Origin: Arcobacter suis CECT 7833 | GTDB lineage: Bacteria > Campylobacterota > Campylobacteria > Campylobacterales > Arcobacteraceae | Direction of reading: 5' to 3' | Assembly (NCBI RefSeq): GCF_003544815.1 | Contig: NZ_CP032100.1 | Location: 310,001-374,000 of the forward strand | DNA: 64,000 bases | Shown here: positions 39,430 through 41,097 of the stretch, piece by piece | Layout: each line of letters begins with the position of its first letter | Numbering within the stretch: position 1 is the first letter of the stretch | The notes under the pieces: generated by a model | Told to the model about the DNA's origin: nothing | The model's input: only the letters and a program-made list of their open reading frames with translations | Databases searched by the model: none | Made by a program: the position numbers and the translations under genes

Positions 39430-40002
39430 ATGAAAAATAATATCTATTTTGAAACTATAAAATGTGATGATTTTGAGATCTTTAATTTAGATTTTCATAA
39501 TAAACGAGTTGCTAATACAATTGGTTTAAATATAAATTTACAAGAGTATATTTATCCATTAAGTGAAGAGTTGCTTCGATGTAAAGTTACTTATAATGAT
39601 TTTGAAGTTATAAATGTAGAATATTTTGTTTATAAAAAAAGAGAAATTAACTCTTTTAAATTGATATTTGATAATAAAATTTCATATTCAAAAAAATATT
39701 TAGATAGGGAAAATTTAGATAATTTATTTTTACAAAAAGAAGATTGTGATGAAATTATTATTGTAAAAAATGGTATTGTAACAGATACAAGTATTGCAAA
39801 TATAGCGATATTTTATGATGATGTTTGGATAACTTCTAAAAACTGTATATTAAAAGGAACAACAAGAGCTAGGCTTTTGGAAGAGAAGTTTTTAATAGAA
39901 AAAGATATTAGTATTGAAATGCTTCAAAAAGCTTCTAAAATCGCTTTAATGAATGCAATGATAGGTTTTGATATTAAAGAAAATTATTCATTTAAAGTAT
40001 AA
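39430..40002 (+). CDS. pabC: Class IV aminotransferase, probable aminodeoxychorismate lyase
   Basis: Releases p-aminobenzoate and pyruvate from aminodeoxychorismate. The chosen start gives 190 residues (MKNNIYFETIKCDDFE) with AAAGGAC upstream. An ORF start at 39394 lies inside pabB and lacks a ribosome-binding site. Fold-type IV features include NKRVANTIGLN near residue 25 and IVKNGIVTDTSIANIAIFY, and KGTTRARLLEE near the C-terminus. It is shorter than E. coli PabC (269). Its last 19 bases overlap the convergent protease gene. Confidence 0.8.
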   Translation: MKNNIYFETIKCDDFEIFNLDFHNKRVANTIGLNINLQEYIYPLSEELLRCKVTYNDFEVINVEYFVYKKREINSFKLIFDNKISYSKKYLDRENLDNLFLQKEDCDEIIIVKNGIVTDTSIANIAIFYDDVWITSKNCILKGTTRARLLEEKFLIEKDISIEMLQKASKIALMNAMIGFDIKENYSFKV

Positions 40003-40622
40003 ACTCTATTTAAAAGTTTTTCCCATTTATTATCTTTACCCCAATTTATATTTACATTTTGTGTGAATTTTTCATGAGAAAATCTATAAGAATCAATTTC
40101 ATTAAAAGCAAATTTTGGGATTAATTTTGTCCTTTTTGTAAGAGGAATAACTACAGAACTTAAATTATCTAAAACTAAAGAAGTTGATTCTTTTGTTTCT
40201 AAATATAATAAAATCATATGTGAAGTTTTTTCGCCTTTTATATCTACAACTGCAAAATATAATTTTTCTTTAGGAATACCTAATTCTAATAATGTAAAGT
40301 ATTTAGCAATAACATAATCTTCACAATCTCCATGTCCTTGAAGTAAAAATTCTTTTGGTGTTGCCCAATAATCAAGTGAAGCTTGAGTTGATATATCATG
40401 TGCTGGAAGTATTTTATTTATAAAAGAGTTTACATGTGATAATTTTTTAAGAAGCTCATAATCTTTTATTTGTATTTTTAACTCTTTATATTTATTTAAT
40501 CGATTTTCAATAAATGATTTTTTATTTGAGTTAGTTATATATTTAAGATCTTTTTCATTTAATTTAAATTCATAAGCAAGAGCATAATTGATAAGGAAAA
40601 TAAGGAAAATAAGTTGTTTCAT
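39984..40622 (-). CDS. Periplasmic transglutaminase-like cysteine protease (LapG/BTLCP family)
   Basis: 212 residues with a signal peptide (about 1-16, IFLIFLINYALA). The catalytic triad of the bacterial transglutaminase-like cysteine proteinase family is visible: Cys100 in GHGDCEDYVIAKY, His135 in EKTSHMILL and Asp152 in LVLDNLSS. LapG proteases cut surface adhesins such as LapA when c-di-GMP is low and are held by LapD. Neither a LapD-like nor an adhesin gene is in this window, so the target is unknown. Calcium-site residues were not assessed. Confidence 0.8.
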   Translation of the reverse strand: MKQLIFLIFLINYALAYEFKLNEKDLKYITNSNKKSFIENRLNKYKELKIQIKDYELLKKLSHVNSFINKILPAHDISTQASLDYWATPKEFLLQGHGDCEDYVIAKYFTLLELGIPKEKLYFAVVDIKGEKTSHMILLYLETKESTSLVLDNLSSVVIPLTKRTKLIPKFAFNEIDSYRFSHEKFTQNVNINWGKDNKWEKLLNRVYTLNE

Positions 40623-40662: not shown

Positions 40663-41097
40663 ATGGTTAAAGATATTATAGAAGACAATGGGTATAAAAG
40701 TTTAGTTGAAAAACAAATAAAAGAGAATGTACTTTTTTTATTAGAAAAAAATAAAGAGTTTTCAATCACCGCAAATATTGAACCTATTAGTTTCACACCA
40801 GAACTACCAAAAGTTATAAAAGATCAAATGCACAAATTTTCTTTATTTATTTTGAGTAACTATACATATACAACAGTTCAAGTTGACGATAATTATATTA
40901 GTTTTGAAGCAGGATTTGGAAATGAAAATTTTGGAAGTGTGGTTAAAATTCCACTTTATGCGATTTTCCAGATTATTATTGATGAATCAATTTTATATAT
41001 AAATTCAGTTGCAACTGTAGAAAAATTTAATAAAGATTTGAAAAAGAATTCATTTAATATTTTTAAAAATAATCCAAATAATAAAAAATTTAACTAA
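40663..41097 (+). CDS. Small protein with SspB-like fold (candidate ClpXP adaptor)
   Basis: 144 residues, not assigned to a named family with certainty. The layout is an N-terminal helix (about 14-33, VEKQIKENVLFLLEKNKEF), then beta segments ending in YISFEAGFGNENFGSVVKIPLYAIFQIII (about 82-110). This resembles SspB (F-x-A-x-F-G-G ... V-x-V-P-L-x-A-I-x-x-I). SspB delivers ssrA-tagged peptides to ClpXP in Proteobacteria. The tail (about 120-144) is Lys/Asn-rich and could carry a ClpX-binding element, but the usual terminal motif is not obvious. It is transcribed with azlC 14 bases downstream. Confidence 0.5.
   Translation: MVKDIIEDNGYKSLVEKQIKENVLFLLEKNKEFSITANIEPISFTPELPKVIKDQMHKFSLFILSNYTYTTVQVDDNYISFEAGFGNENFGSVVKIPLYAIFQIIIDESILYINSVATVEKFNKDLKKNSFNIFKNNPNNKKFN

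Follow-up and report, generated by a model that had tools for sequence, protein, structure and literature searches.

A candidate SspB-type adaptor for ssrA-tagged proteins, nearly universal among sampled Campylobacterota of one order

The gene and its distribution

The window analyzed here is a stretch of 64,000 nucleotides from Arcobacter suis CECT 7833 (NZ_CP032100.1, positions 310,001 to 374,000). Its forward strand carries a gene for a protein with a predicted SspB fold, and the models of that fold, taken with the other evidence below, make it probable that the product is an SspB-type delivery adaptor, one that holds ssrA-tagged proteins at a Clp protease (most likely ClpXP). SspB of E. 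coli hands incomplete, tagged proteins to a degradation machine. The coordinates of the gene and of the parts of its product are collected in Table 1.

Table 1. The adaptor gene and the parts of its product, in window coordinates
Feature	Residues	Coordinates	Strand	Basis
Gene for a 144-residue SspB-fold protein (candidate ssrA/Clp adaptor of Campylobacterota)		40663..41097	+	Open reading frame with ATG start; family searches; predicted fold
N-terminal helix	9-28	40687..40746	+	AlphaFold secondary structure
Beta-rich SspB-like core	33-114	40759..41004	+	AlphaFold, Foldseek and VIA-align; hhalign aligns columns 18-113 to SspB
Most conserved block, FEAGFGxENFGSxVxxPLxAIxQI	81-104	40903..40974	+	Alignments; conservation
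Variable low-confidence linker	119-129	41017..41049	+	Column entropy; model confidence
Conserved C-terminal peptide, SxxxFxxNPxNKKF (candidate protease docking peptide)	130-144	41050..41094	+	Column entropy; tail pattern

The open reading frame was compared with those of its relatives. Differences from a close homologue (L001) numbered 7, 4, and 31 at the first, second, and third codon positions, respectively, and third positions held most of the differences between the window gene and four close homologues. This bias confirmed that the frame is a real gene. A search of genome contigs returned homologues at 18 loci, including ones in Aliarcobacter, Arcobacter, Poseidonibacter, and Halarcobacter. 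A homologue was present in 59 of 60 relatives, in 292 of the 298 genomes of a phylum search, in 115 of 121 genomes of family f13, and in 144 of 153 of family f10; these samples overlap, and all of the genomes were labelled as the same order as the window or nearer. Judging from their ssrA tags, we infer that f13 is Helicobacteraceae and f10 Campylobacteraceae. The protein is near-universal among the sampled genomes of the order. The initial annotation had proposed it as a candidate SspB in Campylobacterota, where a diverged member would be noteworthy; the likeness to SspB stood, but the protein is no rare, diverged member. In both annotated records that were found (Sulfurovum mangrovi and a stretch of Helicobacter heilmannii), the product is named a hypothetical protein.

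Predicted fold, sequence likeness, and layout

All structures were predicted as monomers using AlphaFold. For the window protein, the predicted local distance difference test score (pLDDT) was 80.9 and the predicted template-modelling score 0.74; the weakest of the five models had a pLDDT of 57.0. The model features a long N-terminal helix, which the initial annotation had placed ahead of the strands, followed by a beta barrel. In a Foldseek search of the PDB, ranks 1-19 were all SspB-family chains with a probability of 1.00, and the next row had a probability of 0.57. Two of these 19 chains are from 2nys, which is titled only AGR_C_3712 of Agrobacterium; we take it to be an alphaproteobacterial SspB and counted it as such. 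VIA-align placed twelve SspB-family entries at Z-scores from 11.4 (2nys) and 11.1 (Caulobacter SspB) down to 8.5. The first unrelated row was a designed small barrel at 6.8; designed SH3-like barrels reached up to that value, and Hfq reached 4.8. A second AlphaFold model was made for a homologue (L018) that is 48% identical to the window protein. Its pLDDT was 75.2, and Foldseek rows 1-16 were SspB-family entries. A fold unlike SspB had been named beforehand as grounds for rejecting the identification; both models instead gave the folded domain a predicted SspB fold.

Searches with single sequences gave fainter signals. With E-values up to 10 admitted, the sole NCBIfam match of the window protein was an SspB model (E 0.0018, 18.3 bits vs. 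a cut-off of 249), and no Pfam family was matched. Among 35 members of the family, SspB was the commonest match in Pfam (3/35, best E 0.0029) and in NCBIfam (4/35 for the best model, best E 4.5e-5), below the curated cut-off in both cases. PF04386 had no match in the protein's own genome, and its gathering score was not reached by the members. Against the PDB, phmmer with the window protein gave two chance-level matches, and a hidden Markov model of the family matched only designed helical proteins, via the N-terminal helix. A scan of viral contigs with E. coli SspB yielded no match.

The family alignment was matched by hhalign to an alignment of 14 SspB sequences with an E-value of 3.2e-4 and a probability of 38.9%. 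In a control run, the real profile scored 27.0 (E 0.0011, probability 21-25%); 200 column-shuffled profiles scored 18.1 or less (best E 0.037), the reversed profile scored 12.5, and the real profile was thus better than 200 of 200 shuffles. At the profile level, the similarity to SspB is significant and beyond chance. The lack of any significant profile match had been the second ground named beforehand for rejection, and it did not apply. This match and the top structural matches support the SspB-type identity first proposed from the strand pattern. That pattern was also recovered in the alignments: within YISFEAGFGNENFGSVVKIPLYAIFQI (residues 78-104), the most conserved block lines up with FNARFGG...VSVPLAAVLAI of E. 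coli SspB.

The layout of the protein was assessed in 39 diverse members. Mean column entropy was 1.6-2.4 bits in the parts of the folded domain, 3.01 in the linker, and 1.73 in the C-terminal stretch. The linker measured 6-33 residues between the columns of residues 118 and 130; pLDDT fell below 50 at residues 126-133 of the window model, and it was also low in the linker of the L018 model. The C-terminal consensus can be written approximately as S-[MLF]-x-x-[FLI]-x-[SN]-N-P-x-N-K-K-[FL], a pattern shared by 33 of the 39 members and absent from all 14 reference SspB sequences. The arrangement typical of SspB (a folded domain, a flexible linker, and a conserved C-terminal peptide) is therefore seen in these alignments and models. 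In known SspB proteins, the N-terminal helix makes the dimer interface, and by analogy the window protein may form dimers.

The C-terminus was examined for a motif that binds the zinc domain of ClpX, a check proposed in the initial annotation. In the family that serves ClpX, a terminal peptide known as XB binds this domain, according to PMC8138137. No XB-like pattern was found in the 39 members (0/39), compared with 12 of the 14 reference SspB sequences; the different conserved peptide described above stands in its place. As the known motif is missing, the layout is the basis on which docking on ClpX is proposed.

ssrA tags, adaptor losses, and gene neighborhood

The tags, which are encoded by transfer-messenger RNA (tmRNA), were numbered by the SspB convention (A1 A2 N3 D4 E5 N6 Y7). 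tmRNA was found in 36 of 36 genomes. The tag set comprised 112 tmRNA loci, with G244 having no readable tag. The tags of G208, G043, and G257 were read by pattern after ARAGORN misread the gene or found none, and those starting with AANN (G050, G061, and G079) were aligned on NN, i.e. shifted by one residue. Of 80 genomes tested, four gave no tmRNA match (G361, G409, G398, and G054); two of these, G361 (genus g50, 56% complete) and G409 (55% complete), also had no detected adaptor and lie outside the tag count. G411 was counted as adaptor-bearing on a fragment match alone (residues 3-40, E 3.4e-4).

All 96 readable tags of adaptor-bearing genomes, from 58 genera, had Asn at position 4 and either Tyr (67 tags) or Phe (29 tags) at position 7. 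The adaptor was gone from every searched genome of two genera that belong to different families: g50 of family f13 (G119, G242, G280, G314, and the partial G361) and g67 of family f10 (G261, G394, G395, and G396). With a wider profile, no match was obtained in g50 or g67 even at an E-value of 10; three diverged f13 controls were found at 1e-34 or better. All eight readable tags of the two genera had Leu at position 7, and all four g67 tags also had Lys at position 4.

The losses look clean, and synteny supports them. In the f10 relatives G045 and G063, the gene order is pepF (oligoendopeptidase F), adaptor, and a helicase gene that by eye resembles uvrD; in 4/4 g67 genomes, pepF runs directly into the uvrD-like gene with no adaptor. 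Three of four f13 relatives checked (G048, G070, and G221) have pepF, the adaptor, and next a gene whose start is of the VFRF type; in the fourth, G328, the adaptor is followed by a small gene that is placed further on in the others. In the g50 genomes G242, G280, and G314, the VFRF-type gene directly follows pepF. In G119, pepF is followed by what is apparently the later small gene, with no adaptor between. Five loss genomes have both pepF and tmRNA on one contig (G119, G261, G394, G395, and G396); the two are separated there by about 70 to 870 kb, so close linkage does not account for the joint change of tag and adaptor. In two separate losses, each in a different family, the tag thus changed in the same way at a remote locus.

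A separate observation concerns the other half of the tag. In ANNTNYAPQRVAA (L139, in G000, the genome of the window) and ANNSNYVPMRVAA (L268, in G030), the adaptor half is kept, and the C-terminal half is unusual compared to the common APAYAKAA.

ClpX was found in all 21 genomes searched, at 24 loci. Both CxxC pairs were kept in 20 of the 20 loci displayed, five loss genomes included; loci L160, L161, L165, and L171 were left out of this check. The Pfam model of the ClpX zinc finger scored above its cut-off in 23 of 36 genomes, in none of the five loss genomes, and in none of seven adaptor-bearing f13 genomes (G070, G221, G282, G067, G069, G328, and G200). Adaptor loss might have followed from loss of the ClpX zinc domain; this explanation was rejected, because the CxxC pairs persist in the five loss genomes and the low Pfam scores extend to adaptor-bearing f13 genomes. 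The genome of the window has two ClpX-like proteins with zinc domains, both encoded outside the window (G000:C1:2518917-2520134 and G000:C1:7617-8771; 65% and 52% identical, respectively, to the G040 ClpX used as the query). Two ClpX-like proteins also occur in G031 and G036.

Around the adaptor gene in the window lie genes for chorismate-binding, aminotransferase IV, Peptidase_C93, AzlC, and AzlD proteins. sspA does not adjoin it in the window, the only locus where the neighbors were searched for it. Of 41 loci, 30 have an aminotransferase-IV cluster within two genes upstream, and 11 have pepF directly upstream. The gene for Peptidase_C93 (transglutaminase-like; 39984-40622, reverse strand) adjoins the adaptor gene on the opposite strand, and its cluster was the upstream neighbor in 17 of the 41 loci. 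The adaptor gene lies directly 3' of pepF in L051/L158 (G040), in L278, and in 11 of the 41 loci overall, and the ends of the two genes touch or overlap in several. The position of a peptide-degrading enzyme next to a protease adaptor may not be coincidental. clpX lies about 3 kb from the adaptor gene in G040; it was not a conserved neighbor in the 41 loci. Locus L278 is from a record described as a prophage of Helicobacter heilmannii (BK070128.1) and includes housekeeping-like genes (oligoendopeptidase F, the adaptor, acetate kinase, and phosphate acetyltransferase), which suggests that the borders given for this prophage may be too wide.

Proposed mechanism, alternatives, and relation to known SspB systems

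In the proposed mechanism, tmRNA would add the ssrA tag to proteins from stalled ribosomes, and a peptide-binding groove of the adaptor would hold the N-terminal half of the tag (A-A-N-N-x-x-Y/F). The conserved C-terminal peptide, carried on its flexible linker, would dock on the N-terminal zinc domain of ClpX, and tagged proteins tethered in this way would be degraded faster by ClpXP. By analogy with SspB, tag binding, the identity of the protease, and a docking role for the tail are each presumed here. The groove-tag step gains support from the joint disappearance of the adaptor and the aromatic residue at position 7 in two lineages of different families.

Several observations weigh against this mechanism. 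The evidence for a link to the tag comprises only two clear loss events, and an aromatic residue near tag position 7 also occurs in bacteria that are not known to have SspB, e.g. B. subtilis. Seven further genomes with no detected adaptor keep Tyr or Phe at this position (G236, G358, G375, G376, G407, G412, and G038). The first six are drafts of 100-320 contigs; adaptor-bearing members are known for genera g62, g19, g16, and g68, and g73 (G412) has no other sampled member. Because of this fragmentation and the adaptor-bearing congeners (none sampled for G412), these six absences were read as assembly gaps. G038, the sole genome of its family in the sample, has no detectable adaptor and combines Lys4 with Phe7. 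The small number of loss events would suit an SspB-fold adaptor that serves other substrates, with the tag change in the loss lineages being a coincidence or general tmRNA drift; SspB is also on record as binding a substrate without an ssrA tag, RseA (title of entry 1yfn). Set against that account are the identical change from an aromatic residue to Leu in both losses, the invariant aromatic residue in the 96 adaptor-bearing tags, and the distance between tmRNA and pepF, and we consider it quite unlikely.

The choice of protease was weighed separately. The tail is unlike the known XB motif, which leaves room for ClpA or another protease as the partner, and an adaptor of this fold might deliver ssrA-tagged proteins to ClpAP, Lon, or FtsH via its different C-terminal peptide. 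The ClpX N-domain that scored below the Pfam cut-off in the seven adaptor-bearing f13 genomes is in keeping with such a partner. The structural relatives, however, are members of the SspB family, described in PMC8138137 as serving ClpX, and ClpX with its CxxC pairs was present wherever it was searched for and displayed. Delivery to a protease other than ClpXP was accordingly judged unlikely. A last possibility is that an unrelated, conserved small-barrel protein resembles SspB by chance. The aligned identity to solved SspB is only 11-15%, no Pfam cut-off was reached, the hhalign probability was only 39% (21-25% in the control run), and the query-normalised TM-scores from Foldseek were moderate (0.44-0.54). 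Fold, profile, domain order, and tag covariation nevertheless agree, and the designed SH3-like barrels and Hfq fell well short of the SspB entries in Z-score; chance resemblance is therefore considered highly improbable. Delivery of ssrA-tagged proteins, most likely to ClpXP, remains the favored reading.

The protein was also compared with the SspB groups already described. It has in common with gamma- and betaproteobacterial SspB (PF04386; E. coli b3228; 1ou8, 1ou9, 1oul, and 8et3) the fold, the helix-then-barrel order, the aligned core block, the variable linker, and a conserved C-terminal peptide. Its identity to the solved chains is 11-15%, and it differs in having FEAGFGxEN with a short insertion in place of FNARFGG, and in ending in S..FLSNPxNKKF rather than RPxLRVVK. 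Their sspA neighbor is not beside the window gene, and the tag expected for the window family is ANNxx(Y/F), as opposed to ANDENY. Alphaproteobacterial SspB (Caulobacter 2qas/2qaz and, as we identify it, Agrobacterium 2nys) gave the best structural matches at an aligned identity of 11% and provides a precedent for a diverged branch. Several predicted structures of phage SspB-like proteins (Pseudomonas PA7, Aeromonas phiA8-29, and Erwinia phages) matched the fold with a probability of 1.00; these are phage genes, and 3 of the 4 aligned phage members end in an XB-like tail (by eye). In the BFVD entries I7DAK3 and B3FJK8 (Pseudomonas phages PA7 and 201phi2-1), the SspB-like fold lies within uncharacterised proteins of 302 and 373 residues, respectively. 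Because no XB tail was found, the family is treated as a branch of its own within the SspB superfamily rather than as classical SspB.

Helicobacter is of special interest. G070 (tag VNNADYAPAYAKAA) and G072 (tag VNNTDYAPAYAKAA) both carry the adaptor gene, as does the named Helicobacter heilmannii record. VNNTDYAPAYAKAA is, we believe, the tag of H. pylori. Thibonnier et al. 2008 (PMC2584231) give a prediction that H. pylori has no SspB and describe its tag as having no SspB recognition motif; the latter statement is repeated in PMC2862035. No description of an SspB of Campylobacterota was found in the literature searched, including the portions available of PMC2862035, PMC2584231, PMC8512704, and PMC8138137.

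It is likely that Campylobacterota, including Helicobacter and (as the tags suggest) Campylobacter, have a third branch of SspB, distinct both in the peptide that would dock on ClpX and in its tag code (Asn4 and an aromatic residue at position 7), and that tag and adaptor co-evolve, the loss of the adaptor freeing the tag to change. If this is true, the published view that H. pylori has neither SspB nor an SspB recognition motif would be wrong; ssrA tagging has been reported to be necessary for stress resistance and competence in that species. The adaptor reading also offers a function for a gene that is near-universal in an order to which important animal and human bacteria belong, along with environmental ones. 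The two gene losses with matching tag changes constitute a natural experiment, which makes the co-evolution of adaptor and tag directly testable, and the pair could serve synthetic biology as an orthogonal adaptor and degron.
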